Shown one piece after another: positions 13,202 through 32,996 of a stretch of DNA of 64,000 bases. The notes below the pieces were generated by a model, which made no database searches, was not told the origin of the DNA, and worked only from the letters and a program-made list of their open reading frames with translations. The DNA lies in NCBI RefSeq assembly GCF_016613535.2, contig NZ_CP071518.1:1364001-1428000 (forward strand). Direction: 5' to 3'. The translations under genes and the position numbers were made by a program. The DNA comes from Lysobacter solisilvae (GTDB taxonomy: Bacteria; Pseudomonadota; Gammaproteobacteria; Xanthomonadales; Xanthomonadaceae). Within the stretch, counting starts at the first letter, position 1. Every line of letters begins with the position of its first letter.

Positions 13202-13208
13202 TCAGCCC

Positions 13209-13232
13209 GCGCTGCGCGGCAACGCGCAGCGC
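13209..13232 (+). promoter_or_regulatory. intercistronic hairpin with GNRA tetraloop
   Basis: Eight bases after the adaptor stop codon there is a perfect 10-bp stem, GCGCTGCGCG (13209-13218) with CGCGCAGCGC (13223-13232), closed by the loop GCAA (13219-13222), a GNRA tetraloop. No T run follows, so it is not a classical intrinsic terminator. It lies within the adaptor-pump operon. It may protect the upstream message end or lower pump expression relative to the adaptor; both are inference. Confidence 0.6.
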
Positions 13233-13412
13233 CGTCCCACGCCGGGGTTGACCGCCACGGCGCGCAGGTTCCCGGAACGGGCGGCCTGGCCACCCTGGCC
13301 ACCTGTTCCACCGCGGCGCGATGCGCCGCCTCCATGCGTGGCCCCTGCCCGCACGGAGTCCGCCAGATAGGGCGCTTCCCACGGGACGCGCCGCGACCCA
13401 AGCGAGGCGTCC

Positions 13413-16400
13413 ATGGTTCTGTCCGACATCTCCATCCGCCGTCCCGTCTTCGCGATGGTGATCAACCTGGTGGTGCTGCTGGTCGGCATCATCGCGTACG
13501 ACCGCCTGGCGGTACGGCTGATCCCGAACGTCGACGTCCCGGTGGTCACCGTCAACACGGGCTATCCCGGCGCCAGTGCGCAGGTGATCGAGTCGCAGGT
13601 GACCCAGCCGATCGAGGACGCGTTGTCCGGCGTGGAAGGCGTGGAGTACATGCAGTCGGTCAGCCGCGAGCAGTCCAGCCAGGTGACCATCCGCTTCCGA
13701 CTCAACCGCGATCCGGACGGCGCGGCGTCCGACGTGCGCGACCGCGTCGCGCAGGCGCGGCAGTTCCTGCCCGAGGAAGTCGACGAGCCGGTCGTCCAGA
13801 AACAGGAAGCCGACGCGCAGCCGATCATCTACCTGGCCTTCTCCTCCGACCGGCACTCGCAGGTGGAGATCGCCGACTACGCCGAGACGCTGGTCAAGGA
13901 CCGCGTGCAGACCATCCCGGGCGTGGCCCAGGCGCAGGTCTACTCGAGCACCTACGCGATGCGCGTGTGGATCCAGCCGCAACGGCTGGCCGGCTTCGGC
14001 CTGACGCCGGCGGACGTGGAAGCCGCGCTGCGCGAGCAGAACGTGGAGATTCCGGCCGGGCGCGTGGAAGGCAGCGACCGCGAGTTCACCGTCCTGTCGG
14101 AAACCGACCTGAAGACGCCCGAGCAGTTCGGCAACATCGTGCTGGGCGACGTCAAGGGCACGCTGGTGCGCCTGCGCGACGTGGCCAAGGTCGAACTGGG
14201 CCAGGAGGAGGACCGCTTCCGCGCGCGCTACAACGGCAAGAACGCGGTGCCGCTGGGCATCGTCAAGCAGGCGGTGGCCAACCCGCTGGACATCTCGCAG
14301 GCGCTGCAGGAGATGCTGCCGAAGATCACCCAGTCGCTGCCGCAGGGCATGAAGGTCGAGATCGCCTATGACTCGACGATCTTCATCGACAAGTCGATCG
14401 AGGAGGTGCAGCACACGGTGCTGATCGCGATCGGCCTGGTGATCGTGGTGATCTTCCTGTTCCTGCGCAGCTGGCGGGCCACGCTGATCCCGCTGGTGAC
14501 CATCCCGGTTTCGATGATCGGCGCGTTCGCGCTGATGTACGCCTTCGGGTTCACCATCAACACGCTGACGTTGCTGGCGATGGTGCTGGCGATCGGCCTG
14601 GTGGTCGATGACGCGATCGTGATGCTCGAGAACATCGTGCGCCACATCGAGGAAGGCATGCCGCCGATGGAGGCGGCGTTCAAGGGCAGCAAGGAGATCG
14701 GCTTCGCCATCGTCGCCATGACCCTGACCCTGGCCGCCGTGTACATCCCGCTGGCCTTCTCCACCGGGCGCACCGGCAAGCTGTTCGTGGAATTCGCACT
14801 GACGCTGGCCGGTTCGGTGCTGGTGTCCGGTTTCACCGCGCTGTCGCTGTCGCCGATGATGTGCTCACGGCTGCTGCGCGGCGACAACCACCACGGACGC
14901 TTCTACCAGGCCGGCGAACGCGTGCTGCAGTGGATGGATTCGCATTACCGCAGCGCCTTGTCGGCGATGATGCGCTGGCGCTGGATGGTCGTGGGCTTTG
15001 CCGCGCTGGTGTTCGCCGGCGCCGTCGGCTTGTTCCTGTGGCTGCCCAAGGAAACCGCGCCGCAGGAGGACCAGGGCTTCATCATCGCCATCGGCGTGGC
15101 GCCGGAAGGCTCCACGGTGGAGTACACCGACCGCTACGCCAAGCAGATGGAAGGCATGCTGATGGGCCTGCCGGACCAGCAGCGGGTGTTCGAGATCGTC
15201 GGCTTCCCGGACGTCACCCAGGCCATCGGTTTCACCATGCTCACCGACTGGTCCAAGCGTGAAAAGTCGGCCAAGGAAATCTCCGATGCGCTGGGCGGCC
15301 AGATGTTCTTCGCCGTGCCGGGCGTGCTGGCCTTCACGATGACGCCGCCGCCGCTGGGCAGCGACGACTTCCTGGGCAAGCCGGTCAACTTCGTCGTCCA
15401 GAGCACGGGCACGTGGGATGAGCTCAACGCCACCGTGCAGAAGCTCATGGCCAAGATGCAGACCAATCCGAAGCTGATCGCGCCGGAAACCGACCTGAAG
15501 CTCAATAAGCCGCAGCTGCGCGTGGAAGTCGACCGCGACAAGGTGGCTGCGGTGGGCAGCAGCGTGGACACGGTCGGCCACACGCTGGAGACGTTCCTGG
15601 GCGGGCGCAATGTGACGCGCTTCAAGCGGGGATCGGAGCAGTACGACGTCGTCGTGCAGATCGAGGATGCCGCCCGGCGCACGCCGGGGGCGCTGTCCAA
15701 CGTGTTCGTCCGCGGTGGCGACGGGCAGATGGTGCAGCTGTCCAACCTGGTCAGCGTCAATGAGACGATCGCGGCCAAGGAGCTCAACCACTTCAACAAG
15801 CTGCGCGCCGCCACCGTGAGCGCCGGCCTCGCGCCGGGCTACTCCATCGGGGACGCGCTGACCTGGATGGAAGATGCGCTGCAGGAAGTCGCGCCGGCCT
15901 CGCCGTACGATCTGTCCGGCCAGAGTCGCGAATTCCGCGAGTCCTCCAGCGACTTCGCGATGATCTTCCTGCTGGCGCTGGCCTTCATCTTCCTGGTGCT
16001 GGCCGCGCAGTTCGAAAGCTGGGTGGATCCTTTCGTGATCCTGCTGGGGTCCGTGCCGCTGGCGTTCTTCGGCGCGCTGCTGCTGCTCAAGCTCACCGGC
16101 GGCTCGTTCAACATCTACACCCAGATCGGCCTGGTCACGCTGGTCGGCCTGATCGCCAAGCACGGCATCCTGATCGTGGAGTTCGCCAACCAGCTGCAGG
16201 AGGACGGACGCGACAAGTTCAACGCCGTGCTCGAAGCCGCCGCCCTGCGCCTGCGCCCGATCCTGATGACGACCGGCGCCATGGTCCTGGGATCGTTGCC
16301 GCTGGCCATTGCCACCGGCGCCGGCGCGGAGGCGCGCAACCAGATCGGCTGGGTCATCGTGGGCGGCATGTCGATCGGCACGCTGTTCACCCTGTTCGTG

Positions 16401-20280: not shown

Positions 20281-20311
20281 TGGGGTCGGCGGCGAGCGGT
20301 TGCCGACCCCA
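20281..20311. terminator. hairpin between convergent tex and GntR genes
   Basis: TGGGGTCGGC (20281-20290) pairs perfectly with GCCGACCCCA (20302-20311) across an 11-base loop. It lies 13 bases after the tex stop, in the convergent gap. There is no T run on either side, so it may act as a transcript-end barrier and not as a classical terminator. Confidence 0.5.
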
Positions 20312-20427
20312 GTCCCGGCGCTGCGACGCAACCCGATGCAATGCGGGGTGGTCGGTGGTCGGCCTGGCAGGTCCGAGGCCTCGCGCTCGCGCTGGACCCA
20401 CCCGGGCACGGAGTGCCGTGCGCGAAC

Positions 20428-21120
20428 TTACTCCTGCACCGAGCGCCGCGCCTTGGCCGGCGCAGTGGCGGTGGCGGTTCCCCGCAGCTGCTTGCGCAGA
20501 TCGTCCAGGGTGACGGTGATGTGGTCGGCGAGCAGGGTCGTGACGCGCTGCGGGTCGCGCGCCATCCAGGCCTTGAGCAGTGCGCGGTGCTCGCGGTGCG
20601 CGCGGGCATGGCGGCCGGCCGGTTCCAAGTGCTTGTGCACGTAGCGCTCGGCCAGCACGTGCAGGCGTTCGATCAGCTGGGAGGTGACATGCCGGCCGCC
20701 CGGACGCACCAGCGCCAGGTGGAAGGCGCGATTGAGCAGCACCATCGCGCGGCCATCGCCGCCGGTGGCGTTCTCCAGCGCGGTCAGTGCGGCGGTCGCG
20801 GTGGCGCGTTCGGCCTCGTCGGCTTCCAGGCTGGCGTGGGCGGCTGCCTCGGGTTCGATCTTCAGCCGCAGGGCGAACACTTCCTCGGCCTCGGTCGTGG
20901 TCAGCGCCGGCACCACGAAACCGCGGTTGGGATGCGACTGCAGCAGTCCGTGCTGCTCCAGCCGCGCCAGCGCCTCGCGCAGGGGGATCTTGCTGATCCC
21001 CAATTCCTCGGCGAGGGCGTCCTGCCGGATCGGCGACAGCGGGGGGATCCGCGCCGACAGGATCCGCTCGCGGATCACTTCGAAGGCCTGGTCGGCCAGA
21101 GTCCGGGTGACGATGCTCAT
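20428..21120 (-). CDS. GntR/FadR-family transcription regulator of hydroxyproline genes
   Basis: A 230-residue regulator with an N-terminal winged HTH (about residues 7-72: QAFEVIRERILSARI, LAEELGISKIPLREALARLE) and a C-terminal FCD all-helical ligand domain. The FCD domain has metal-site histidines (FHLAL near residue 133, HREHRALL near 184-188). It is the last gene of the - strand operon deaminase - epimerase - dehydrogenase - regulator and starts 9 bases after the dehydrogenase stop. The GTATAC-centred palindrome in the divergent promoter at 24549-24560 fits FadR-subfamily operators, so autoregulation and control of the pathway are likely. The inducer is probably hydroxyproline or a pathway intermediate. 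Confidence 0.88.
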   Translation of the reverse strand: MSIVTRTLADQAFEVIRERILSARIPPLSPIRQDALAEELGISKIPLREALARLEQHGLLQSHPNRGFVVPALTTTEAEEVFALRLKIEPEAAAHASLEADEAERATATAALTALENATGGDGRAMVLLNRAFHLALVRPGGRHVTSQLIERLHVLAERYVHKHLEPAGRHARAHREHRALLKAWMARDPQRVTTLLADHITVTLDDLRKQLRGTATATAPAKARRSVQE

Positions 21121-21129
21121 GCCCCCAGT

Positions 21130-22581
21130 CTAGCCTGCGGCCAGATACGTCGTGCGCACCGTGGTGTAAAACGCCCGCGCAGCTCGTCCTTGTTCACGCG
21201 GGCCAAAACTGGAGGCGCCCATGCCGCCGAAGGGCGCGTGGTGATCGACCCCGGCCGTGGGCAGGTTGATCATCAGCATGCCCGCGCGCGCATGGTGCTT
21301 GAATGCCTCGGCGTGCCGGAGCGAGCGCGTGCACAGGCCGGCCGACAGGCCGTGGCGCGAATCGTTGAGCAGCGCCAGCGCCTCATCGAAGCCGTCGACG
21401 CGGAACACGCCCGCGACCGGTCCGAAGATCTCCTCGCGCGCCAGCGGGCCGGCGTGGTCGGCGTGGTCGAACAATGTCGGCGGGAAGAAGCAGTCCTGAG
21501 GGTCGGGCACGGCACCGAAGGCGGTGATGGCGCCGCTGCGACGCACTGCATCCACCTGCGCACTGACCCGTTCCTTCTGCCGAGGCGAGGCGAGTGGGCC
21601 CACGTCGGTGGCTGCCTGGCGCGGGTCGCCAATCGCCAGGCGGTCCACGCGTTGCGCCAGGGCCACGACGAAGCGGTCGGCGATCGCGTGGTCGACAATG
21701 ATCCGCGAGGTCGCCGTGCATCGCTGGCCCGCGGCGAAGAACGCGCCATTCGCTGCGCATTCCACTGCCACGTCGAGATCAGCGTCGGCCAGCACGATCA
21801 GGCCGTTGACGCCGCCCATCTCCAGCTGCACGCGCGCGCCGCGGGCCGTCACGGCCTGCCGCACCGCACTGCCGGCACTCTCCGAGCCGGTGAACGACAC
21901 CGCATCGATGCCAACGTGCGCGCACAGGGCGGCGCCGCTGGCGCCGGCGCCGAGCAGCATGTTGACGCTGCCCGAGGGCAGGCCGGAGTGCGCGACGATG
22001 CCCATCAGCTTCGCGGCGATGGCCGAGGACACTTCGGAAGGCTTCCACACCACGGTATTGCCGAACGCCAGGGCCGGGGCGATCTTCCAGGCGGGAATCG
22101 CGATCGGGAAATTCCAGGGCGTGATCACGCCCACCACGCCGACGGGGTGCTGCATCACCTCGACCATGGCGCCCAGGCGAGTGGAGTCGAAGCGCTCGCC
22201 GACGTTGCGCAGGGTCTCGCCGGCGAAGAAGTCGAAGATGCGCGCGGCGCGGATCGTCTCGCCGCGTGCGTCGCGCAGGGTCTTGCCGGTCTCGCGTGCG
22301 ATCAGCAGGGCGAAGTCGTCGGCCTCCGCGGCGATCTGCCGGCCGATGCGCGCCAGTGCGTCGCTGCGGGCTTCGATGCCCCCCAGCGACAACGGCGCCA
22401 GCGCCCGCCGGGCCGCATCGACGGCATGCGCCACGAGGTCGGCGCCGGCCTGCGGCAGCCGCACGCACAGATCGTCCGGCACCGCCGGGTTGCGCTGTTC
22501 CAGCTCGGCTGGCCCGGGCATGTCCTGCCCCGCGATGTGATGGGCCAGGGTCAGGGAAGTTGCGTGCATTTCGTCGTTCAC
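21130..22581 (-). CDS. aldehyde dehydrogenase, probable 2-oxoglutarate semialdehyde dehydrogenase
   Basis: A 483-residue NAD(P)-dependent aldehyde dehydrogenase. The cofactor motif is TPWNFPIAIPAWKIAPAL, the general base is Glu254 in LEMGGVN, and the nucleophile is Cys288 in GQRCTATSR. The C terminus has EEIFGPVAGV and PFGGMGASSFG. Lys in the usual GGKN is replaced by Val. It begins at GTG 22581, one base after the epimerase stop; ATG 22569 is an alternative start. Its place in a hydroxyproline operon suggests it oxidises 2-oxoglutarate semialdehyde to 2-oxoglutarate, the last step. The family assignment is secure, the substrate inferred. Confidence 0.9.
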   Translation of the reverse strand: MNDEMHATSLTLAHHIAGQDMPGPAELEQRNPAVPDDLCVRLPQAGADLVAHAVDAARRALAPLSLGGIEARSDALARIGRQIAAEADDFALLIARETGKTLRDARGETIRAARIFDFFAGETLRNVGERFDSTRLGAMVEVMQHPVGVVGVITPWNFPIAIPAWKIAPALAFGNTVVWKPSEVSSAIAAKLMGIVAHSGLPSGSVNMLLGAGASGAALCAHVGIDAVSFTGSESAGSAVRQAVTARGARVQLEMGGVNGLIVLADADLDVAVECAANGAFFAAGQRCTATSRIIVDHAIADRFVVALAQRVDRLAIGDPRQAATDVGPLASPRQKERVSAQVDAVRRSGAITAFGAVPDPQDCFFPPTLFDHADHAGPLAREEIFGPVAGVFRVDGFDEALALLNDSRHGLSAGLCTRSLRHAEAFKHHARAGMLMINLPTAGVDHHAPFGGMGASSFGPREQGRAARAFYTTVRTTYLAAG

Positions 22582-22582
22582 G

Positions 22583-23581
22583 TCAGGTCACCACGAAGCC
22601 GTGGGCAAAGGTGTCGGCATCGTCGATCCAGATCTGGCTGAAGCCGGTGGCGATCGCCGCGCCTTCGATGGAGGGCACGATCGCCGCGTGGGGGCCCACG
22701 GTCGTCTCGTCTTCGACGCGGCCGATGAAGCGGCTGCCGATGTAGCTCTCGTGCACGAAGCGGTCGCCCCTGCGCAGCCGGCCGGTCGCGGCCAGCTGCG
22801 CCATCCGCGCCGACGTGCCCGTGCCGCAGGGGCTGCGATCGATCGCGCGCTCGCCGTAGAACACCGCATTGCGGCCGTCGGCGCCGTCGCCGCGCGGCGC
22901 GTCCGCCCACAGCACGTGGCTGACGCCCCGGATCGAGGGGTCCAGCGGGTGCACCGGCTCGAACTGCTCGCGGACCAGGGCACGGACGGTGCGGCTGAGT
23001 TCGATGATGCGTGCCGCGCCGAGCGCATCCAGGCTGGTGTACGCCCCCTGGGGTTCGACGATCGCGTAGTAGTTGCCGCCATAGCAGACATCGATGGCCA
23101 GCTCCCCGAAGCCGGGCACCTGCACGCGCAGGCCACGCGCGGCCAGGTAGCTGGGCACGTTGCGCAGGCGGATGCTGGCCACGCGTTCGCCCTCGCTGCG
23201 GTATTCCACGTCGATGACTCCCGCCGGCACTTCCACGCGCAAGCGGCCGGATTCGCGCGGCCGGATCAGGCCGTGCTCCAGACCGAAGGTGAGGATGCCG
23301 ATCGTGCCGTGACCGCACATCGGCAGGCAGCCGCTGGTTTCGATGAAAAGAATGCCCAGGTCGGCATCGTCACGCGTGGGCGGATAGAGAAACCCGCCCG
23401 ACATCATGTCGTGACCGCGGGGCTCGAACATCAGGCCGGTGCGGATCCAGTCGAAACGGGCCAGGAAATCCTGGCGCCGTTCGCTCATCGAAGCCCCCGT
23501 GAGCAGGGGCGCGCCACCGCTCACCAGCCGGACCGGATTGCCCGCGGTGTGGCCGTCGATGCAGAAGAACGTATGGCGCAT
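22583..23581 (-). CDS. 4-hydroxyproline 2-epimerase
   Basis: A 332-residue member of the proline racemase family. It opens MRHTFFCIDGHTAGNPVRLV. Both active-site cysteines are present: Cys89 in PMCGHGT and Cys252 in SPCGTGTSA. Two cysteines mark an epimerase or racemase; trans-3-hydroxyproline dehydratases have Thr at the second site. It should interconvert trans-4-hydroxy-L-proline and cis-4-hydroxy-D-proline. It lies 11 bases after the deaminase gene and 1 base before the dehydrogenase gene in the same operon. It has no signal peptide, so the reaction is cytoplasmic. Proline racemase activity is possible but less likely here. Confidence 0.92.
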   Translation of the reverse strand: MRHTFFCIDGHTAGNPVRLVSGGAPLLTGASMSERRQDFLARFDWIRTGLMFEPRGHDMMSGGFLYPPTRDDADLGILFIETSGCLPMCGHGTIGILTFGLEHGLIRPRESGRLRVEVPAGVIDVEYRSEGERVASIRLRNVPSYLAARGLRVQVPGFGELAIDVCYGGNYYAIVEPQGAYTSLDALGAARIIELSRTVRALVREQFEPVHPLDPSIRGVSHVLWADAPRGDGADGRNAVFYGERAIDRSPCGTGTSARMAQLAATGRLRRGDRFVHESYIGSRFIGRVEDETTVGPHAAIVPSIEGAAIATGFSQIWIDDADTFAHGFVVT

Positions 23582-23592
23582 CGACGGTGTCC

Positions 23593-24516
23593 TCAGGCGG
23601 CCGCGGCGGCGACGAGGGTGGGTCGCGTGGCGGCCGCGCGTTCGACCATGCGCCGCACTTCCTCGTAGCGCGTGCCCGTGAGCGGCATGCGTGGCATGCG
23701 CACGCGCTCGGTGCCGCGTCCCATCACCGCTTCGGCCAGCTTGATCGCCTGCACCAGGTCGTGCCCGGCGTCCAGGTGCAGCAGCGGCATGAACCAGCGG
23801 TAGATCTGCAGCGCCCGCGCCAGGTCGCCGCGCTGCACCGCGTCCCACAGCGCCAGTGATTCCTGCGGGAAGGCGTTGGTCAGGCCCGACACCCAGCCGC
23901 GGGCGCCGAGCAGCAGGCCCTCGAGCGCGACGTCGTCGAGGCCCGCGAACAGGGCGAAGCGGTCGCCGAAGGCATTGATCAGGTCGGTGAAGCGACGCGG
24001 GTCGGGCGCGCTTTCCTTCACCGCCACCACGTTGGGCACTTCCACCAGCCCGGCGAGGGCCTGCGTGCTGATGCTGACCCGGTAGGCCGGCGGGTTGTTG
24101 TAGAGCATCACCGGCAGCGCGGTGCTGGCCGCGACCATGCGGAAGTGCGCGAGCAGTTCGGCTTCGGTGGGCACGTACACCATCGCCGGCAGCACCATCA
24201 GGCCGGTGGCGCCGATGTTTTCCGCGGAGCGGGCGAAGGCCATCGCGCGTGGCGTGGTGAGTTCGGAAACGCCGGCGATGACGGGCACGCGCCCGGCGGC
24301 CACTTCCACGGCCGCGGCCAGCACCGCCTGCTTTTCGTCGGGCTCCAGCGAATTGTTCTCGCCCACCGTGCCGATGATGATCAGGCCGTGCACGCCGTCG
24401 CGTATCAGCGCGTCCTGCACTCTCTGTGTGGCATCGATATCCAGCGCGAAGTCGGGCTTGAACTGGGTGGTGGCGGCGGGGATCACTCCCTGCCAGCGGC
24501 AGGCACTCGTGGGCAT
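23593..24516 (-). CDS. DHDPS-family lyase, probable 1-pyrroline-4-hydroxy-2-carboxylate deaminase
   Basis: A 307-residue TIM-barrel protein of the dihydrodipicolinate synthase/N-acetylneuraminate lyase family. The Schiff-base lysine is Lys167 in VVAVKESA, the catalytic Tyr is Tyr139 in LYNNPPAY, and the substrate motif is GTVGENNSL (residues 49-57). The GENNS form differs from the GTTGE of true DapA. Its position next to a hydroxyproline epimerase and an FAD amino-acid oxidase indicates the deaminase that converts pyrroline-4-hydroxy-2-carboxylate to 2-oxoglutarate semialdehyde. It is the first gene of the operon, and its promoter faces the GTATAC palindrome at 24549. Confidence 0.9.
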   Translation of the reverse strand: MPTSACRWQGVIPAATTQFKPDFALDIDATQRVQDALIRDGVHGLIIIGTVGENNSLEPDEKQAVLAAAVEVAAGRVPVIAGVSELTTPRAMAFARSAENIGATGLMVLPAMVYVPTEAELLAHFRMVAASTALPVMLYNNPPAYRVSISTQALAGLVEVPNVVAVKESAPDPRRFTDLINAFGDRFALFAGLDDVALEGLLLGARGWVSGLTNAFPQESLALWDAVQRGDLARALQIYRWFMPLLHLDAGHDLVQAIKLAEAVMGRGTERVRMPRMPLTGTRYEEVRRMVERAAATRPTLVAAAAA

Positions 24517-24540
24517 GCGGTTTTTTCTCCGGGGGTTGAA

Positions 24541-24561
24541 TATCGTAGATCGTATACGATA
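24541..24561. promoter_or_regulatory. palindromic operator in the divergent hydroxyproline promoter
   Basis: ATCGTATACGAT (24549-24560) is a perfect 12-bp palindrome with the GTATAC centre typical of FadR/VanR-type GntR regulators. A second half-site, ATCGTA, sits at 24542-24547, so TATCGTA (24541) and TACGATA (24555) also form an inverted pair. The AT-rich stretch lies 25-67 bases from both divergent starts and could cover both promoters. Binding by the regulator at 20428-21120 is inferred. Confidence 0.65.
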
Positions 24562-24607
24562 TATATGCCGCCACCAAGGGGGCAGCCGGCCCCCGGAGCC
24601 GACCCGC

Positions 24608-25918
24608 GTGCACGCCAGCAGCACTCCTTCCACTGCCGTGGTGATCGGCGCCGGCATCGTCGGCCTGGCCTGTGCGTTGCGCCTGCAGCAGTGCGGGCTG
24701 ACCACGACGCTGGTAGATGCCCAGACCCGCCCGCAGGGGGCCTCGTACGGCAATGCCGGGCACATCGCGATCGAGCAGGTCGAACCCCTGGCCTCCTGGT
24801 CCACGTTGCGTTCGGCGCCCCGCCGGCTTTTCGCCATGGGCGGCGCGCTGGACGTCCGCGATCCGCTGTGGGTGGCGCCGTGGGCACTGCAGATGGCGTG
24901 CGCGGCGTCCCCGCGTCGCTTCGAAGCCGGGCGCGCGGCACTGGGCGGCTTGCTGCGGCAGGCGCTGCCCGCCTGGCGCAACCTGGTGGACACCCTGGGG
25001 CGACGCGACCTGCTGCGCGCCGATGGCCATGTCGTGGTGTGGGAATCTGCCGCCAGCGCCGCCCGTGGCCGCGCGACATGGGCGCGCGCGGACATCGGCG
25101 GTGCCCGCGTGCGCGATCTGGTCCAGGCCGAACTCGACGAGCTGGCGGCCGTGCTGCGCAGCCGGCCGGCGGGCGGCGTGCATTTCGAAGGCACCGCGCA
25201 GGTCGCCGACCCCGGCCTGGCGCTCGAAGTCATGCGCGACGCGTTTGAAGCCTGCGGCGGCACGCTTCGCCAGGCGCCAGTGCGCGCGTTGTCGGTGCAG
25301 GACGGCCGTACGGGCGCGGTGCTCACCGACGGCAGCGTGCTGCAGGGCGACTGCGTCCTCGTGGCCGCGGGTGTGGGTTCGCGCGCACTGCTGGCAACTC
25401 TGGGGATACACGCTCCACTGATCGCCGAGCGCGGTTATCACCTGCAGTGGAGCGAACACAACTGGCCGCTGCGCATGCCGCCGGTGGTGTTCGAGGACCG
25501 GTCGCTGATCCTTACCCGCTTCCGCAGCGGACTGCGCGCGGCCAGCTTCGTCGAATTCGCGCGGCAGGAGACCCCGCCGGACCCGCGCAAGTGGCGGGCA
25601 TTGGGTCGCCATGCGAGTGATCTGGGGCTGCCGGTCGGCGGTGAACCGCAGCCCTGGATGGGTGCGCGGCCGACCCTTCCCGACTATCTGCCCGCGATCG
25701 GTCGCAGCGCGACGGCACCGGGCCTGCTGTACGCCTGCGGCCACCAGCACCTGGGACTCACCCTGGCGCCGCTGACCGCGCACCTGGTCGCGGCGCTGGC
25801 CACAGGACGCCCGCCGCCGGTGTCGGTGCAGCCCTTCGATCTCGCCCGCTTCTCCTCGGCCCGATCCTCCTCTGCCCACTTTCCGTCACGCGCTTCTTCA
25901 GCGAGCACACGTCCATGA
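24608..25918 (+). CDS. FAD-dependent amino-acid oxidoreductase, probable D-hydroxyproline dehydrogenase
   Basis: A 436-residue DAO-family flavoprotein (DadA-like). The N-terminal Rossmann motif is VVIGAGIVGLACALRLQQCG. The flavin-covering C-terminal part includes RPTLPDYLPAIGRS and YACGHQHLGLTLAP, typical of the family. The start is GTG 24608 with GGAG nine bases before it; the nearby ATG is out of frame. It should oxidise cis-4-hydroxy-D-proline to the pyrroline, step two of the pathway, passing electrons to the respiratory chain or oxygen. It is the first gene of the + strand arm, and the next gene overlaps its stop by 4 bases. The substrate is inferred from context. Confidence 0.9.
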   Translation: MHASSTPSTAVVIGAGIVGLACALRLQQCGLTTTLVDAQTRPQGASYGNAGHIAIEQVEPLASWSTLRSAPRRLFAMGGALDVRDPLWVAPWALQMACAASPRRFEAGRAALGGLLRQALPAWRNLVDTLGRRDLLRADGHVVVWESAASAARGRATWARADIGGARVRDLVQAELDELAAVLRSRPAGGVHFEGTAQVADPGLALEVMRDAFEACGGTLRQAPVRALSVQDGRTGAVLTDGSVLQGDCVLVAAGVGSRALLATLGIHAPLIAERGYHLQWSEHNWPLRMPPVVFEDRSLILTRFRSGLRAASFVEFARQETPPDPRKWRALGRHASDLGLPVGGEPQPWMGARPTLPDYLPAIGRSATAPGLLYACGHQHLGLTLAPLTAHLVAALATGRPPPVSVQPFDLARFSSARSSSAHFPSRASSASTRP

Positions 25919-27117
25919 GTCAAGGTATCGGCGGTTCCACGGCGGAACACGAACTGGCGGCGCTGCGGCGCTGGCCGCAGCAGGCCGCGCGCATCGGCGC
26001 CGAAGAACGTGCGCATCGCCTCAAGCGCGCCCGCGCGCTGATGGCCGATGCCGGCGTGGACGCCCTGGTCATCAACGCGGGCGCCAGCCTGCGGTATTTC
26101 TCCGGCCTGCCGTGGGCGCCGACCGAGCGGCTGATCGTGCTGCTGGTCCGCCCGTCGGGTCCCCCGGTGCTGGTGTGTCCACAGTTCGAGCTGGGCTCGG
26201 TCGAAGCGGGGCTGGGCGTGCTGGCCGACGTACGCACCTGGGAGGAGCACGACAGCCCACACGCGCTGCTCGCCGACTCCCTGCGGGAAGTGGGCGCCCG
26301 CCGGATCGCGGTCGATCCGCAGATGCCCTTCTGCCATATCCAGGCGCTGCGACAGGCGGCGCCCGGCGTCGAGCTGATCGACGCCGCCCCCGTCATCGAC
26401 GGCTGCCGCATGCACAAGTCACAGGCCGAACTCGCCCTGATCCGCCAGGCGATGGCGATGACGCTGGAAGTGCACCGCCGCGCCGCAGCCATCCTGCGTC
26501 CGGGCGTCAGCACCGCGAACGTGCGGCGCTTCATCGACGAGGCACACCGCGCGCTGGGCGCCGACAACGGCAGCACCTTCTGCGCGGTCCAGTTCGGCCA
26601 GGCGACCTGCTACCCGCACGGCGTCCCCGGCGAACAGCTGCTTGCACGGGGCGACCTGGTGCTGATCGATACCGGCTGCACCGTCGACGGTTACCACTCC
26701 GACATCACCCGGACCTACGTGTTCGGTGCGCCCACCGTCGAGCAGTCGGCGGTGTGGCAGCTGGAGCGCGAAGCGCAGCAGGCGGCTTTCGACGCAGTCC
26801 GCCCGGGATATCCGTGCGAAACCGTCGATGCGGCGGCGCGCACGGTACTGACACGCGCCGGCTTCGGGCCCGACTACCGCCTGCCCGGGCTGCCGCACCG
26901 CACCGGGCACGGCATCGGGCTGGCGATCCACGAGGCGGCCTACCTGGTGCGCGGTGACCGCACGCCGCTGGCGCCGGGCATGTGCTTCAGCAACGAACCG
27001 ATGATCGTCGTGCCGGGCCGCTTCGGAATACGACTCGAAGACCACTTCCACGTGACCGAACGCGGCGCGCAGTGGTTCACGCCGCCATCGCCCTCGCTGG
27101 CGGCGCCGTTCGGATGA
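25915..27117 (+). CDS. M24 family Xaa-Pro peptidase
   Basis: A 400-residue pita-bread metallopeptidase. A creatinase-like N-terminal domain (residues 30-165) precedes the catalytic domain with the dinuclear metal ligands Asp252 (LIDTGC), Asp263 (HSDITRT), His332 (GHGIGL), Glu361 (SNEPM) and Glu375 (RLEDH). It has no signal peptide, so it acts in the cytoplasm on imported peptides. It is coupled to the hydroxyproline oxidoreductase gene by an ATGA overlap, which suggests it releases proline or hydroxyproline from Xaa-Pro/Xaa-Hyp peptides for the pathway. Aminopeptidase versus dipeptidase activity cannot be settled from sequence. Confidence 0.9.
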   Translation: MSQGIGGSTAEHELAALRRWPQQAARIGAEERAHRLKRARALMADAGVDALVINAGASLRYFSGLPWAPTERLIVLLVRPSGPPVLVCPQFELGSVEAGLGVLADVRTWEEHDSPHALLADSLREVGARRIAVDPQMPFCHIQALRQAAPGVELIDAAPVIDGCRMHKSQAELALIRQAMAMTLEVHRRAAAILRPGVSTANVRRFIDEAHRALGADNGSTFCAVQFGQATCYPHGVPGEQLLARGDLVLIDTGCTVDGYHSDITRTYVFGAPTVEQSAVWQLEREAQQAAFDAVRPGYPCETVDAAARTVLTRAGFGPDYRLPGLPHRTGHGIGLAIHEAAYLVRGDRTPLAPGMCFSNEPMIVVPGRFGIRLEDHFHVTERGAQWFTPPSPSLAAPFG

Positions 27118-27244
27118 CCCCATACCGCGCGGGGAGCCGCCACTGGGCCGGCACGCTCCTCAACACGATGCTCCCGGCGACATCACGCGCACATCGCCGC
27201 CAGCCATGGGCAGCACGAGCTGCCCACGCCACAGGAGAGGTGTC

Positions 27245-29911
27245 ATGACACCGCGTTTTTCCAGGTCCAGACGTTCCAGAGGGTTCACCGCCGCCGTCGG
27301 CATTGCCGCCATGTGCGTCGCCATGCTCGGCTACGCCGCCGCCACCAGTCCCGGCGGCATGCTGCGTCCCGTCACCCAGCCCGAATCGCGTGCGCCGCAC
27401 GTGGTCGCGCGTCCCGCCAGCGTCAACGCACCGGTCAACGCCCCGGTCAGCGCATCGAGGCACACGGCCTCCGCGCCCGCGTCGCCGGCCCGCGCCCGTA
27501 TCGGCCGGCGTCCCAGCACCGAGAAGGAGGTGTTCGGCGCCCACTTGCAGTACCGGCCGCTCGACCCCGCCCATCGCGCACCCCTGCAGAGCCCGCTGGC
27601 GCGCAAGGTCGACAGTGGCTACGACTACGCCGCGCTCCACCGCAACGTGCTGCGCCGTCCCAGCCAGCTGAAGCGCACCAAGGCCCAGGCCATGGCGGCC
27701 TGCGACAGCAACCAGTTCGGCAGTCTCAGTGGCGCGGCGCTGGTCACGGCCGTCAAGGCGGCGGAGACATCGTGCATCAACACGCTGTTCGGCCTCACCG
27801 GCACGGCGGCGTACAACACTTTCCGCGAAGCGCAGATGGTGACGATCGCCAACGCGATGACCTCCGCGACGACCAGCTACAACGGCACCAACGCCGGCAA
27901 CCTCGCCCAGCTGGTGCTGTTCCTGCGCGCGGGCTACTACGTGCAGTTCTACGACACCAGCGTGGGCAGCTACGGCACCGCGCTGCGCAACGCCATCCGT
28001 CCCGCGCTGGACGCCTTCGCGGCCAACTCGTCTTTCGGCCTGGTGAACGACACCCACGGCGAGATCCTGTCGGAGTACGTCATCCTGCTGGACAGCGCCG
28101 GCGAGAACGCGCGCTACCTGTACCTGGTCAAGCGGCTGCTCAATGCCTACAACAGCAGCTACAACACGTACTACTGGATGAAGTCGGCGGTCAACAACGC
28201 CTACACCATCCTGTGGCGCGGTCACCAGATGGACGATTTCCGCGCGGCGGTACAGGCCGACACTTCGATCGTCGATACGCTGCATACCTTCGTCAACAAC
28301 AACTTCGCCCAGCTGGGCGGCGCCAACGACTATCTGGTGGCCAACGCCGGCCGTGAGATGGCGCGCTTCCTGCAATACACCGGGCCCCTGAAGAGCCTGG
28401 CGCAGCTGCGTTCGAAGAACCTGATCGATCGTTCCACGATCCCCGGTGCCACCGCCAAGCTGTGGCTGGGCGTGGGCGAGATGATCGACTACCACGACAA
28501 GGCCAACTGCGCGTACTACAACCTGTGCGACTTCGTCGCCCGCGTCGATGCGGCCGCGCTGCCGATCCGCCACACCTGCAGCCCGACGCTGAAGATCCGT
28601 GCCCAATCGATGACGAGCACCGAGCTGGCCAACACCTGCTCGATCGTCGCCGGCCAGGAGAATTACTTCCACCAGCAGGCCGCGACCAACCGCACGCCGG
28701 TGGCCCAGGACAACAACGCCGCGCTGGAGATGGTGGTCTTCGACAGCAGCAGTGACTACGGCACGTATGCCGGCACGCTCTACGGCATCGACACCAACAA
28801 CGGCGGCATGTACCTCGAGGGTGACCCGGCGGTCGTCGGCAACCAGGCGCGCTTCATCGCCTACGAGGCCGAGTGGCTGCGCCCGACCTTCGAGATCTGG
28901 AACCTCACCCACGAGTACATCCATTACCTGGACGGGCGGTTCAACATGTTCGGCGACTTCCAGGCCGCGATGACCCAGAAGACCGTGTGGTGGGTCGAGG
29001 GCTTTGCCGAGTACATGTCCTACTCGTACCGCAACGTGATCTACACCGCCGCGCAGAACGAGGCCGCGGCCGGTACCTACAACCTGAGCCAGGTGTTCCA
29101 GAACGATTACAACAGCGGCACGACCCGGGTCTACCGCTGGGGCTACCTGGCCGTGCGCTACATGTTCGAAAAGCGCCGCAGCGATGTCAGCAACATCCTC
29201 GCCTACTTCCGTCCGGGCAACTACACCGGCTACGCGAGCTTCATGACCAGTATCGCCACGCGCGACGACGCGGCGTTCAAGGCCTGGCTGCCCTGCGTGG
29301 TGAACCCGTCCAATCCGGGCTGCAGCGCGGCCAACCAGGCGCCCAAGGCCGTGTTCGGGTACGCGGTCAGCGGGCTGAAGGCGAACTTCACCGACGGCTC
29401 CAGCGATCCGGACGGCGCCATCGTGGCGCGCAGCTGGAACTTCGGCGACGGCACCACGTCGACGGCGACCAATCCAAGCAAGACCTGGAGCACGGCAGGC
29501 AGCTACACCGTCTCGTTGACCGTGACCGACGACAAGGGCGCACGCACCACGGCCAGCAAGGTGGTGACCGTAGCCTTCCCCGAGTGCACCGCCACCGATA
29601 CGCGCGTGCTCGACCGCAACTGCAGTCGTAGCAACCTGACCGCAGCGCAGGGCAGCCTGAAGTACTTCTACATCTACGTGCCCGCCGGCACGCCCAGCCT
29701 GCGAATCACCAGCACAGGCGGCACCGGCAATGCGGACCTGTACGTCAACACGCTGGGCAACTGGGCCTCGCCGACGTCGCACAACTACCGTTCGACCACG
29801 TCGACCAACAGCGAGACCCTGGTCGTCAACAACCCGCCGGCTGGCTACGTGTACGTGAGCCTGTACGCGACGACGGCCTTCAGCGGCGTGCGCCTGTCGG
29901 TCCAGTACTGA
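27245..29911 (+). CDS. secreted M9 collagenase (Vibrio type) with PKD and PPC domains
   Basis: An 888-residue secreted zinc metallopeptidase. It has an Arg-rich signal sequence with hydrophobic core at residues 14-33, then a Pro/Ala-rich propeptide-like stretch. The collagenase activator/peptidase unit has HEYIH (556-560) and the downstream zinc-ligand Glu585 in WWVEGFAEYM. A PKD domain (about 697-777, RSWNFGDGTTST) and a C-terminal PPC domain (about 795-885) follow. PKD and PPC domains help substrate binding or are trimmed after export. It begins 127 bases after the M24 peptidase gene on the same strand with a good AGGAGAGG site. It should degrade native collagen outside the cell, feeding the hydroxyproline genes next door. 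Confidence 0.93.
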   Translation: MTPRFSRSRRSRGFTAAVGIAAMCVAMLGYAAATSPGGMLRPVTQPESRAPHVVARPASVNAPVNAPVSASRHTASAPASPARARIGRRPSTEKEVFGAHLQYRPLDPAHRAPLQSPLARKVDSGYDYAALHRNVLRRPSQLKRTKAQAMAACDSNQFGSLSGAALVTAVKAAETSCINTLFGLTGTAAYNTFREAQMVTIANAMTSATTSYNGTNAGNLAQLVLFLRAGYYVQFYDTSVGSYGTALRNAIRPALDAFAANSSFGLVNDTHGEILSEYVILLDSAGENARYLYLVKRLLNAYNSSYNTYYWMKSAVNNAYTILWRGHQMDDFRAAVQADTSIVDTLHTFVNNNFAQLGGANDYLVANAGREMARFLQYTGPLKSLAQLRSKNLIDRSTIPGATAKLWLGVGEMIDYHDKANCAYYNLCDFVARVDAAALPIRHTCSPTLKIRAQSMTSTELANTCSIVAGQENYFHQQAATNRTPVAQDNNAALEMVVFDSSSDYGTYAGTLYGIDTNNGGMYLEGDPAVVGNQARFIAYEAEWLRPTFEIWNLTHEYIHYLDGRFNMFGDFQAAMTQKTVWWVEGFAEYMSYSYRNVIYTAAQNEAAAGTYNLSQVFQNDYNSGTTRVYRWGYLAVRYMFEKRRSDVSNILAYFRPGNYTGYASFMTSIATRDDAAFKAWLPCVVNPSNPGCSAANQAPKAVFGYAVSGLKANFTDGSSDPDGAIVARSWNFGDGTTSTATNPSKTWSTAGSYTVSLTVTDDKGARTTASKVVTVAFPECTATDTRVLDRNCSRSNLTAAQGSLKYFYIYVPAGTPSLRITSTGGTGNADLYVNTLGNWASPTSHNYRSTTSTNSETLVVNNPPAGYVYVSLYATTAFSGVRLSVQY

Positions 29912-29922
29912 TTTCCTCGCTT

Positions 29923-29955
29923 CGGGGCGGGCTTCGTCTGCCGCCCCGTCTTTTT
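29923..29955 (+). terminator. terminator of the collagenase gene
   Basis: CGGGGCGG (29923-29930) pairs with CCGCCCCG (29941-29948), followed by TCTTTTT. It lies 11 bases after the collagenase stop and separates the collagen/hydroxyproline locus from the next gene. Confidence 0.85.
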
Positions 29956-30008
29956 CCACCGGCCCGTCCGCCCCCGAAACCGGCGGCGGGCCCCCGGGAA
30001 GCGCCCGA

Positions 30009-30899
30009 ATGATCGTGACGGTGATCCTGATCCTGCTGTGCGTGCTGGGAAGCGCGTTCCTGGCCACGCTGCTGCATGCCGCGCGCAGGCGCGGGCAGCT
30101 GCGACCGTCGCTGGAGGCCATCGGCCTGGGCGCGGTCACCAATTTCTTCGACACGCTGGGCATCGGCTCGTTCGCGCCGACCACGGCGTGGCTCAAGCTG
30201 CGCCGCTGCGTGCCGGACAGTTTCCTGCCGGCCACGCTCAACAGTGGTCATGCGTTGCCCACGGTCGTGCAGGCCGTGGTGTTCATCCATCTGGTGCGCG
30301 TGGACCCGTGGCTGCTGTGCGGCTGCATCGCCGCCGCGGTGTGCGGTGCCGCGCTGGGCGCACGCTGGGTGGTGCGCGTGCCGGTGCGCGTGGTGCAAGG
30401 AGTCGTCGGCGTGGCGATGCTGCTGGCGGCGGCGCTGTACGCGCTGGCCAACCTGAAGCTGATGCCGGCCGGCGGCCAGGCGCTGGGCCTGGACGGCGCC
30501 GGCTTCGCGGTGGCTGTGTCAGCACACCTGATGTTGGGCGCGCTGATGAGCTTCGGCATCGGTCTGTACGCGCCCTCGCTGATCCTGCTCAGCCTGCTGG
30601 GCCTGGAGCCGACCGCGGCGTTTCCGGTCATGATGGGCGCCTGTGCGTTCCTGATGCCGGTCAGCGGAATGCGCTTCGTGCGGTCCGCCCGCATCGACCT
30701 GCGCGTCGTGCTTGGCCTGGCGCTGGGCGGCATCCCGGCCGTGGTGCTCGCGGCGTTCGTCGTGCGCAGCCTCACCCTGGAGAACCTGCGCTGGGGCGTG
30801 GTGGTGGTGGTCCTGTATGCCGCGATCGCGTTGCTGCGGTCGGCCCTGCGGGCGCCTTCGCCGGTGCCCGCGCCGGACCTGATCCGACCCTCGACCTAG
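30009..30899 (+). CDS. TSUP (TauE/SafE) family permease
   Basis: A 296-residue integral membrane protein with about eight helices. The two-fold repeat of the sulfite exporter TauE/SafE family is seen in ATNFFDTLGIGSFAPTTAWLK (first half) and AHLMLGALMSFGIGLYAP (second half). Such permeases move sulfite, sulfonates or other organic anions; the substrate is unknown here. It begins after a strong terminator, so it is probably not part of the upstream collagen operon, although proximity leaves a transport link possible. Confidence 0.8.
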   Translation: MIVTVILILLCVLGSAFLATLLHAARRRGQLRPSLEAIGLGAVTNFFDTLGIGSFAPTTAWLKLRRCVPDSFLPATLNSGHALPTVVQAVVFIHLVRVDPWLLCGCIAAAVCGAALGARWVVRVPVRVVQGVVGVAMLLAAALYALANLKLMPAGGQALGLDGAGFAVAVSAHLMLGALMSFGIGLYAPSLILLSLLGLEPTAAFPVMMGACAFLMPVSGMRFVRSARIDLRVVLGLALGGIPAVVLAAFVVRSLTLENLRWGVVVVVLYAAIALLRSALRAPSPVPAPDLIRPST

Positions 30900-30926
30900 C
30901 GGTCCCAAGTCCCTGCGGAGATTGCG

Positions 30927-32762
30927 ATGTCCCGACTGGTCCTGATCGTACTGGCCGCCTGCATGGCGCTTCCCTCCTGGGCGCAGACGCCTTCGCAGGA
31001 TCTGCAGACGCTGTTCGACGAAGAGCGCGCGTTCCTCTGGCGGGCCGATCCGCTGGTGGCCACTGCCGATGGTGAGCACCGGTTCGACGACCGCCTGCCG
31101 TCGGTGACGCCGGAAGCCCAGCGCGCGCGCCTGGAGGCCGACCGCGGCTTCCTGCGGCGCCTGCAGGCGCTCGACCGCTCTCGGCTGGGGCCGGGAGAGC
31201 AGGTGAGCCATGATCTGTTCGCCTTCATGGTCGGCCAGCGCATCGAAATGGCCGAACACCGCGAGTGGCGCATTCCGCTCAACAGCGATAGCGGCTTCCA
31301 CGCCGACGTGCTCTTCATGCATGAGCTCGCCGCGCCGCGCACCGTCGCCGATTACGAGCGCTACATTGCCCGCCTGCGCGAGGTGCCGCGTTACTTCGAC
31401 GAGAACCTCGCCAACATGCGGCAGGGCATGCGGGAGGGCTTCACCCTGCCGGCCGCCGTGATCGACGGCGTCTCCCGCGCGATCGCCGCCGAACAGTTCA
31501 CGCGGGTGGAGGACTGCCCGTTGTTCCGCCCGTTCGCCACGTTTCCGACCACGGTCCCGGCCAGCGAGCGGGCCCGGCTGGCATCCGCCGGCCGTGAGGC
31601 GATCGAGGAGGGTGTGCTTCCGGCGTACGCGAAGTTCCAGTCCTTCTTCGAGCGCGAGTACCGCGCCCGGGCACGCGCGAGCATTGCCGCGACGCAACTG
31701 CCGGGCGGCGAGGAGTACTACGCCGACCTGGTGCGTTACTACACGACACTGCCCGAAGCGACCGCCGACCAGGTGCACGCTACCGGCCTGGCCGAAGTGA
31801 AGCGGATCCGCGCGGCGATGGAGGCGATCATCGCCGAGGTCGGCTTCAAGGGCAGCTTTGCCCAGTTCCTGGACTTCCTGCGTACCGACCCGCAGTTCTA
31901 CGCCCGCACCCCGGAGCAGCTGCTGCATGCGGCCGCGTGGCTGGCCAAGCAGGCTGATGCGCGGCTGCCCGAATACTTCGGACGGCTGCCGCGCACCCCC
32001 TATGGCGTGCGCGCCGTCCCCGACGCACTGGCGCCCAACTACACCGGCGGCCGCTACAACCCGGGTCCGCTGGGCGGCGCGGGCGAGTACTGGGTCAATA
32101 CGTACCAGCTCCAATCGCGCCCGCTGTACGTGTTGCCAGCATTGACGCTGCACGAGGCGGTGCCGGGCCACCACCTGCAGGGCGCGCTGGCGCGCGAGCA
32201 GACGGGCGTGCCCGCGTTTCGCGTCAACTTCTACCCGCACGCCTTCGGCGAAGGCTGGGGCCTGTATTCGGAGAAGCTCGGCGAGGAATTCGGCCTCTAT
32301 CGCACCCCGTACGAGCGTTTTGGTCGGCTGACCTACGAGATGTGGCGCGCGAGCCGGCTGGTCGTGGACACCGGCATGCACGCCAAGGGGTGGACCCGGC
32401 AGCAGGCGCTGGACTTTCTCGCCGCCAACACGGCCTTGTCCGAGCATGAGGTACGGACCGAGGTCGACCGCTACATCGCCTGGCCCGGGCAGGCCCTCGC
32501 CTACAAGACCGGCGAACTGAAGATCCTCGCGCTGCGTCGCAAGGCCGAATCGGCCCTGGGTGCGCACTTCGACATCCGCGCCTTTCACGACACCGTGCTG
32601 TGCAACGGCGGAGTGACCCTGCCGGTGCTGGAAGCCCAGGTCGAGGACTGGCTGAAGCACGAGATGGCGTGCCTGGACCCGGCGCATCGCGGTTGCGTCC
32701 CGCCTCGCCAGTCCGGATGTCCGGTGGCGGACAGCCCCGGCGCGCCCGGACCGGGGCGCTGA
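30927..32762 (+). CDS. secreted DUF885 family putative metallopeptidase
   Basis: A 611-residue protein with a Sec signal peptide (MSRLVLIVLAACMALPSWA, cleavage near residue 19). Family hallmarks are HEAVPGHHLQG (His409-His416), the GEGWGLYSEKLG block about 35 residues later, and ALAYKTGELKI near the end. The HExxxGHH pattern suggests a zinc site, and DUF885 proteins are generally taken as peptidases of unknown specificity. The C-terminal 35 residues are Pro/Gly-rich with extra cysteines. It follows the TSUP gene by 27 bases and may be co-transcribed. Confidence 0.85.
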   Translation: MSRLVLIVLAACMALPSWAQTPSQDLQTLFDEERAFLWRADPLVATADGEHRFDDRLPSVTPEAQRARLEADRGFLRRLQALDRSRLGPGEQVSHDLFAFMVGQRIEMAEHREWRIPLNSDSGFHADVLFMHELAAPRTVADYERYIARLREVPRYFDENLANMRQGMREGFTLPAAVIDGVSRAIAAEQFTRVEDCPLFRPFATFPTTVPASERARLASAGREAIEEGVLPAYAKFQSFFEREYRARARASIAATQLPGGEEYYADLVRYYTTLPEATADQVHATGLAEVKRIRAAMEAIIAEVGFKGSFAQFLDFLRTDPQFYARTPEQLLHAAAWLAKQADARLPEYFGRLPRTPYGVRAVPDALAPNYTGGRYNPGPLGGAGEYWVNTYQLQSRPLYVLPALTLHEAVPGHHLQGALAREQTGVPAFRVNFYPHAFGEGWGLYSEKLGEEFGLYRTPYERFGRLTYEMWRASRLVVDTGMHAKGWTRQQALDFLAANTALSEHEVRTEVDRYIAWPGQALAYKTGELKILALRRKAESALGAHFDIRAFHDTVLCNGGVTLPVLEAQVEDWLKHEMACLDPAHRGCVPPRQSGCPVADSPGAPGPGR

Positions 32763-32919: not shown

Positions 32920-32996
32920 TGGTGGCTATGGGTGGACTCGAACCACCGACCCCAGCATTATGAGTGCTGTGCTCTAACCGGCTGAGCTACATAGCC
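32920..32996 (-). tRNA. tRNA-Met (CAU), elongator type
   Basis: A 77-nucleotide cloverleaf. The acceptor stem is GGCTATG with its partner ending in encoded CCA, the D-arm is AGCTCAGCCGGTTAGAGC, the anticodon loop is CTCATAA, and the T-loop is GGTTCGAGTCC. The first acceptor pair (G-C) and the D-loop match elongator tRNA-Met of gammaproteobacteria, not initiator tRNA. A CAU anticodon can also belong to tRNA-Ile2 (lysidine-modified), but the close likeness to E. coli elongator Met argues against that. Confidence 0.95.

Follow-up and report, generated by a model that had tools for sequence, protein, structure and literature searches.

Gene content of the locus

The 64,000-nucleotide window analysed here comes from the genome of Lysobacter solisilvae (contig NZ_CP071518.1, positions 1,364,001 to 1,428,000), which is a single contig of 3.93 Mb. 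At 20428-29911 it holds a predicted secreted M9 collagenase together with an M24 prolidase, four enzymes assigned to trans-4-hydroxy-L-proline (Hyp) breakdown and a GntR regulator, and two more genes, for a TSUP permease and a DUF885 protein, lie beyond the collagenase (Table 1). All seven genes in 20428-29911 are open reading frames that score above the Pfam cut-offs of the families listed, which bears out the gene families named in the initial annotation, a reading of the DNA sequence alone. The epimerase is the only one of the seven to pass an NCBIfam cut-off (540 bits on NF010578, cut-off 376). The other six match NCBIfam models only below their cut-offs, so that their exact substrates rest on context; the best match of the dehydrogenase, for instance, is alpha-KGSA dehydrogenase at 425 bits against a cut-off of 770.

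Residues that we take to be those of the active sites are present in four of the proteins: HEYIH at 556-560 with EGFAEY downstream in the collagenase, both cysteines (89 and 252) in the epimerase, Lys167 in the deaminase, and five motifs in the M24 protein. Two catalytic cysteines mark an epimerase, as the dehydratase has Ser or Thr at one of these positions. The M24 protein aligns over its full length with the solved 'Proline dipeptidase' structures 5cik and 4r60 (E = 1.5e-156), which are presumably of Xanthomonas origin. Like the window protein these are M24 enzymes; the window gene stands apart in that it overlaps hypO, by 4 nt, and adjoins the collagenase gene, from which it is separated by 127 nt.

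The collagenase, encoded by the only M9 gene in this genome, combines the M9_N and M9 domains, HEXXH with a downstream Glu, PKD and PPC domains and, by eye, an export signal. Its layout of M9_N-M9-PKD-PPC matches that of the solved collagenases 7esi and 7wss, and the enzyme is predicted to cleave collagen. A start at 27245, with AGGAG just upstream, is more likely than one at 27206. A perfect 14-bp inverted repeat, GGTGTCATGACACC, lies over this likely start codon at 27239-27252 and is also a weak terminator-like stem of five pairs; a terminator scan gave four such stem sites in all, against 3.7 expected.

Table 1. Features of the collagenase-hydroxyproline locus and its right border (positions in the window).
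Feature	Position	Strand	Evidence
GntR/FCD (FadR-type) regulator, candidate repressor	20428..21120	-	Pfam GntR + FCD
Aldehyde dehydrogenase, presumed 2-oxoglutarate-semialdehyde dehydrogenase (hypH-like)	21130..22581	-	Pfam Aldedh
trans-4-hydroxy-L-proline 2-epimerase (hypE)	22583..23581	-	NF010578; Cys89 + Cys252
DHDPS-family deaminase (hypD)	23593..24516	-	Pfam DHDPS; Lys167; context
Predicted operator AGATCGTATACGATAT	24547..24562	.	Sole site in the window's genome at ≤2 mismatches to ATANCGTATACGNTAT
FAD oxidase/dehydrogenase, presumed for D-hydroxyproline (hypO), GTG start	24608..25918	+	Pfam DAO; context
M24 Xaa-Pro dipeptidase (prolidase)	25915..27117	+	Pfam M24 + Creatinase_N; PDB 5cik/4r60
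Secreted M9 collagenase	27245..29911	+	Pfam M9_N, M9, PKD, PPC; N-terminal signal by eye
Intrinsic-terminator-like hairpin after collagenase	29923..29956	+	Fold: 8-bp GC stem, then T-rich run
TSUP (TauE/SafE) permease, candidate transporter	30009..30899	+	Pfam TauE
DUF885 protein, exported (by eye), HEAVPGHH motif, peptidase-like	30927..32762	+	Pfam DUF885; right edge of block
tRNA-Met bordering block	32920..32996	-	Adjoins tex in two congeners

Co-occurrence and arrangement in Lysobacteraceae

The family sample comprised 198 genomes of Lysobacteraceae. M9 was found above the cut-off in 15 of them, with weak matches below the cut-off in 21 more. Orthologs of the regulator (at least 60% identity) occurred in 13 genomes and HypE of the window's type (at least 74% identity) in six, and every one of these genomes also carries M9. 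The hypergeometric probabilities of such overlaps with the 15 M9 genomes are about 1e-18 for GntR and 6e-8 for HypE, values that ignore kinship. Two further genomes with a 36-38% identical GntR relative were left out of the 13. These genes appear and vanish within genera, and one of the three sampled genomes of the window's genus has them.

The initial annotation looked to a conserved neighbourhood in relatives, and the complete hyp-M24-M9 arrangement is indeed seen again in two more genera, but full linkage is confined to three of the 13 GntR genomes (the window, Lysobacter psychrotolerans ZS60 and Luteimonas cucumeris CGMCC 1.10821). Three others, all of one genus (g14), have the hyp cluster and M24-M9 on separate contigs. 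L. penaei and L. spongiae have GntR-M24-M9 with no hyp genes at the locus; searching either genome with the window's epimerase gave no hit at E ≤ 1e-3, so no epimerase product is expected there. Five genomes have GntR-M9 alone, an arrangement that L. psychrotolerans carries as a second locus. A GntR-M9 locus that lacks neighbouring hyp genes is seen in L. enzymogenes ATCC 29487. Four of these five were inspected, and all four carry a second type of hyp locus (HypE 35-38%, M24 60-62% and DUF885 45-50% identical to those of the window). DUF885 homologs are likewise present in hyp loci of other genomes. A single contig of L. antibioticus HS124 (C56) carries three tandem M9 genes, an S9/DPPIV-type peptidase and two TonB receptors, and further holds a TSUP permease, hypD and a second GntR copy.

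A class-wide sample of 274 genomes, which could not probe Alteromonadales, held M9 at E ≤ 1e-30 in one genome, the window's own. None of the four class genomes inspected for their 55-64% identical HypE had M9, and in one of these (G397) a 36% identical GntR adjoins HypE and HypD.

A conserved palindrome at hyp and M9 loci

A 16-bp consensus, ATANCGTATACGNTAT, was derived from Lysobacteraceae loci. It is a FadR-type palindrome with a GT..AC core at hyp promoters, the FadR operator consensus used for comparison being that in the accessible text of PMC4494728. The site in the window sits within the 91-bp hypD-hypO gap, at distances of 30 and 45 bp from the starts of hypD and hypO, respectively. 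With at most two mismatches the consensus is found at the equivalent position in all six hypD-hypO regions of close hyp clusters, 5' of M24 in all three M24-M9 units that stand apart from the hyp cluster, and in the GntR-M9 gap of all six family loci that lack both hyp genes and M24. At this threshold it was not found in the second-type hyp loci of the four genomes described above. A scan of the complete sequences of the 13 GntR genomes gave 27 sites, 16 of which are at hyp, M9 or M24 loci, and all ten sites with at most one mismatch are at hyp or M9 loci.

We also evaluated the consensus on relatives of the regulator, for which 78 GntR loci were gathered: 52 of at least 49% identity and 26 weak relatives (at most 39%). 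Fifteen of the 52 belong to Lysobacteraceae, several of them being loci already in the 13-genome comparison, and the other 37 made up a held-out test. In these 37 we found 36 sites, spread over 25 loci; 100 permuted palindromes gave a mean of 0.64 sites and a maximum of 8 on the same loci. The 26 weak relatives held one site. Across the 52 loci, 29 of 33 hypD and 25 of 31 hypO genes had an operator of no more than three mismatches in the 700 bp before them. Where M9 adjoins GntR, a site lies 229-406 bp upstream of M9 in seven of 11 loci, the remaining four being two full clusters and two GntR-M24-M9 loci. From this conservation we infer that the operator is the target of this GntR.

Two L. antibioticus genomes have a two-mismatch operator-like site (G115:C3, G156:C4) 5' of a gene for an apparently exported protein of about 970-1010 amino acids (L097 2651-5581, minus strand; L099 5563-8607, plus strand). 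This protein has HEXXH with a downstream E and no Pfam match, and may be a metallopeptidase, as yet undescribed, that belongs to this regulon.

Limits of the block

The interval first drawn for this locus, 20428-29911, holds seven of its genes. Comparison with two congeners (G038, G074) and with L. psychrotolerans leads us to include the TSUP permease and the DUF885 protein as well, which extends the unit to 32762. Both congeners lack the whole block from GntR to DUF885 (20428-32762; 12.3 kb, nine genes) between tex and tRNA-Met, as the matched ends of tex and of the RppH-like Nudix gene are only about 350 and 720 bp apart. In these genomes the order of tex, tRNA-Met, the Nudix gene, bacterioferritin, DUF4126 and bactofilin is that of the window (all but tex and the tRNA identified by eye). 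L. psychrotolerans has the nine genes in identical order, 58-85% identical over the best segments, at a different genomic place, with tex on a different contig from the block. The TSUP permease and DUF885 genes were not found in the 20 kb that surround the cluster of Luteimonas cucumeris.

The block probably moved as a whole, and its gain by transfer would be a simpler reading of these comparisons than the alternative, loss in both congeners. Its G+C content (0.696) shows no shift against the flanks (0.690 and 0.692). An island at tRNA-Met with att repeats was considered and rejected, given a tRNA match of only 10 bp, no G+C shift and no integrase among the nine genes. The match, between 20303-20312 in the tex-GntR gap and 32946-32955 in tRNA-Met, is too short for an attachment-site call.

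Related GntR loci outside the family

Genes neighbouring the 52 GntR loci were searched by tblastn (E ≤ 1e-20, at most 10 kb on each side). The 15 Lysobacteraceae loci had M9 in 11 cases and hyp genes in six, with neither GH127 nor an APC permease at any of them. The 37 other loci had hyp genes in 30 cases, an APC permease in 18, GH127 in 10 and M9 in none, and at no locus of the 52 were M9 and GH127 found together. Pfam confirmed GH127 in both proteins tested and the amino acid permease in all three. The ten GH127 loci are from Sphingomonadales (five), Steroidobacteraceae (three), Acetobacteraceae (one) and a record named 'Bacillus sp. 2B10' (one), and an operator with up to three mismatches lies near the start of six of the ten GH127 genes and is missing from the other four. 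Sphingobium sp. SYK-6 is one carrier of a GH127 gene. The 'Bacillus sp. 2B10' contig (L166) carries a GntR-hyp-GH127 locus whose regulator falls among proteobacterial ones in the GntR tree; the record is probably mislabelled or contaminated. Bifidobacterium GH127 and related enzymes act on sugars of plant hydroxyproline-rich glycoproteins, according to the accessible text of PMC10850190 and PMC7263609.

In the midpoint-rooted tree the 16 regulators from Lysobacteraceae all fall into a single group (99/98) that lies among hyp-linked regulators, and M9-only and hyp-linked rows are intermixed inside it. We read the tree as a sign that an older hydroxyproline regulon took in M9, after which hyp genes would have been lost or separated in several Lysobacter. 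The shared switch and core pathway thus seem to be coupled with a plant-wall enzyme in certain lineages and with a collagenase in another; the substrates, plant-wall proteins for the GH127 loci and collagen for the M9 loci, are those suggested by the enzyme families. A broader and tentative reading, to which we give a little less than even weight, is that an old regulon of GntR, CGTATACG, hypE-hypD-hypO and prolidase takes a swappable depolymerase, GH127 for plant glycoproteins and M9 for collagen, and that in several Lysobacter loci, where the regulator stayed with the collagenase but has no adjacent hyp genes, Hyp or a Hyp peptide may have turned into a signal for the presence of collagen and not just a nutrient. 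In that scheme the GH127 enzyme of certain Sphingomonadales and Steroidobacteraceae would be a beta-L-arabinofuranosidase, frequently accompanied by an APC permease.

Candidate transporters

The earlier statement that the cluster has no transporter holds for the interval as first drawn, but the linked TSUP permease starts 97 bp beyond its end at 29911. Orthologs of this permease occur in eight of the 198 family genomes and lie in or beside a hyp locus in seven, four of which have a different hyp locus type without this GntR. L. antibioticus HS124 has a two-mismatch operator between its TSUP permease and hypD.

Two other sources of a transporter were considered. An operator-controlled transporter elsewhere in the window's genome was discarded, the genome having one site at up to two mismatches. 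The APC permease of the relatives has a 65% identical homolog in this genome (G000:C1:2137040-2138419), which we regard only as a general candidate, because it lies beside genes resembling miaA and hflX (by eye) and has no site of fewer than five mismatches in 16 kb. In Peristeroidobacter soli (L154) the gene of a TonB-dependent receptor (12168-15155), a candidate outer-membrane importer, has a two-mismatch operator (15219) 63 bp before it.

Proposed mechanism and alternatives

Given the neighbourhood, the co-occurrence and the conserved operator, the best reading of the locus is the one proposed in the initial annotation, a path leading from collagen to 2-oxoglutarate under a dedicated GntR/FadR-type regulator. 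We consider it likely that 20428-32762 is a collagen- and hydroxyproline-utilisation unit, repressed by GntR at one palindrome and with M24-M9 expressed by read-through. This builds on the observed gene content, co-occurrence, operator conservation and block limits against two congeners; binding and repression by GntR, its ligand, read-through into M9 and transport are predictions from sequence. The M9 collagenase would be exported and cut collagen outside the cell. The resulting peptides would enter the cell, with the TSUP permease as the linked candidate importer, and the M24 prolidase would release proline and hydroxyproline from Xaa-Pro and Xaa-Hyp dipeptides. HypE, HypO, HypD and the dehydrogenase would then convert trans-4-hydroxy-L-proline to 2-oxoglutarate. 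GntR/FCD on the single hypD-hypO palindrome would repress both divergent transcripts and release it upon binding a hydroxyproline-related ligand, and transcription from the hypO promoter would continue into M24 and M9.

Several observations weigh against this reading. The operator counts are one set: 11 of the 27 sites in the 13 GntR genomes lie away from hyp, M9 and M24 loci, a reversed control pattern gave 13 sites in those 13 genomes, and in four genomes that lack this GntR the operator and the control pattern have five sites each. Two-mismatch sites alone therefore mean little, being near background. Six of the off-locus sites (G136:C54, G188:C21, G114:C1, G072:C6, G172:C1, G115:C130) were set aside as chance, as they lie inside roughly predicted open reading frames, two are those ahead of the HEXXH protein of L. 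antibioticus described above, and two others (G115:C28, G115:C44; L. antibioticus) are near other genes; in the GntR-free genomes, the site of G038 is between genes and that of G074 inside a gene. Twelve of the 37 held-out loci have no operator site, L. penaei and L. spongiae show only degraded sites, at three mismatches, and none at two or fewer, and there is no operator site at the GntR start region in the window.

A second set concerns the transcripts. The M24-M9 gap has no operator, the best matches being mismatched at nine of 16 positions in the window and at six and seven in the other two linked clusters, where the gap is about 300 and 115 nt. Direct operator control of M9 in the window was therefore dropped for read-through, on which M9 control in the three linked clusters would rest. 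The terminator-like hairpin (Table 1) sits between M9 and the permease and DUF885 genes. Because it comes after M9, these two genes may be transcribed separately, although it is no stronger than in shuffled sequences (z -0.6) and was not listed by a terminator scan allowing loops of 3-8. The TSUP permease, finally, is an orphan with no hyp locus in one of its eight family genomes, and three of its six homologs outside the family (38-53% identical) were inspected with no hyp homolog found at E ≤ 1e-20 in the 19 kb fetched, which weakens the case for an exclusive hyp transporter.

Among alternatives, the one that survives best, although we think it rather unlikely, is that GntR senses a downstream catabolite instead of hydroxyproline or a peptide. 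Streptomyces HypR is described as unresponsive to L- and D-Hyp in vitro, with a later metabolite proposed (accessible text of PMC6608401). L. spongiae and L. penaei, which keep GntR-M24-M9 with no epimerase match, speak against such a catabolite; their operators are degraded, however. It is less probable still that the unit serves other sources rich in hydroxyproline or proline, such as plant hydroxyproline-rich glycoproteins or invertebrate matrix, with M9 mainly a general gelatinase. The ten of 37 loci outside the family with GH127 in place of M9 would suit this idea, but GH127 is at none of the 15 Lysobacteraceae loci, M9 is at 11 of them, and the layout of the window enzyme agrees with solved collagenases. 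The least probable is a collagenase that is an independent neighbour with its own promoter, GntR governing hydroxyproline catabolism only and adjacency arising from gene clustering: this would fit the 127-nt gap, the lack of an operator before M9 in all three linked clusters and the position of M9 as the last gene of the hypO-M24-M9 run in each of them, but the operator is present at unlinked M24-M9 in all three g14 genomes and between GntR and M9 in all six loci without hyp genes and M24.

Relation to known systems

The adjacency of collagenase and catabolic pathway, singled out earlier as the notable part of the locus, is physically present, but similar links have been published. Papers on Alteromonadales and Streptomyces already connect a GntR regulator, hyp genes and collagenase, and one on Colwellia describes a cluster; what follows draws on the accessible text of these papers. 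The HypR regulons of Proteobacteria (Leyn et al., 2016; PMC5343134) have a GntR regulator, a core of hypE, hypO, hypD and hypH, and lineage-specific members that include secreted collagenases (Alteromonadales) and prolidases; their transporters include a TonB receptor, a peptide permease and a COG531-family permease. The window resembles them in its FadR-type GntR beside hypE, hypO, hypD and a dehydrogenase, and in its collagenase and prolidase. Xanthomonadales, Lysobacter and arabinofuranosidase are not mentioned in the main text of that paper as available to us, and its regulon section names no TSUP transporter. The window's GntR matched seven of 72,556 plasmid records at E ≤ 1e-15, none of them from Sinorhizobium, and 78 Sinorhizobium records match HypE (E ≤ 1e-40). 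The S. meliloti hypR gene was not recognised in the stretch fetched, and the Sinorhizobium GntR comparison rests on plasmid records.

In Streptomyces coelicolor a GntR/FadR-type regulator, HypR, represses both the hyp operon and the gene for an M9-PKD-PPC collagenase (PMC6608401). There the collagenase SCO5912 is far from the hyp operon SCO6289-6294, whereas the two adjoin in the window; the hyp dehydrogenase has subunits, unlike that of the window; and the operator, CTNTGC(A/C)ATGTCAC, differs from CGTATACG, the two having been compared by motif description. The cluster of Colwellia BB5, about 21 kb with a regulator named PutR (PMC7883544), is like the window in grouping M9, a hydroxyproline dipeptidase, epimerase, D-Hyp dehydrogenase, deaminase and dehydrogenase, and has in addition peptidyl-prolyl isomerases (PPIases), an MFS transporter, a TonB receptor and a pyrroline reductase. 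No secreted PPIase, MFS transporter or TonB receptor is among the nine genes of 20428-32762.

In literature searches that covered titles and the starts of abstracts and few subscription journals, we found no publication linking a Lysobacter collagenase with hydroxyproline genes and, among the matches listed, none joining GH127 arabinofuranosidase with a GntR hyp regulon; nor, with few subscription journals covered, did we find one on a TauE-type transporter with hydroxyproline epimerase. Two aspects thus seem to be new: the choice of depolymerase, which varies between lineages (M9 in Lysobacteraceae as against GH127 in certain Sphingomonadales and Steroidobacteraceae), and Lysobacter loci that retain just the regulator and the collagenase.

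The nine-gene unit and its 16-bp operator would predict from sequence which collagenases answer to hydroxyproline across the family, and the TSUP permease is a testable candidate for the missing uptake step. More widely, these loci suggest that bacteria may retarget one amino-acid pathway, to plant wall proteins or to animal collagen, by swapping the secreted enzyme.

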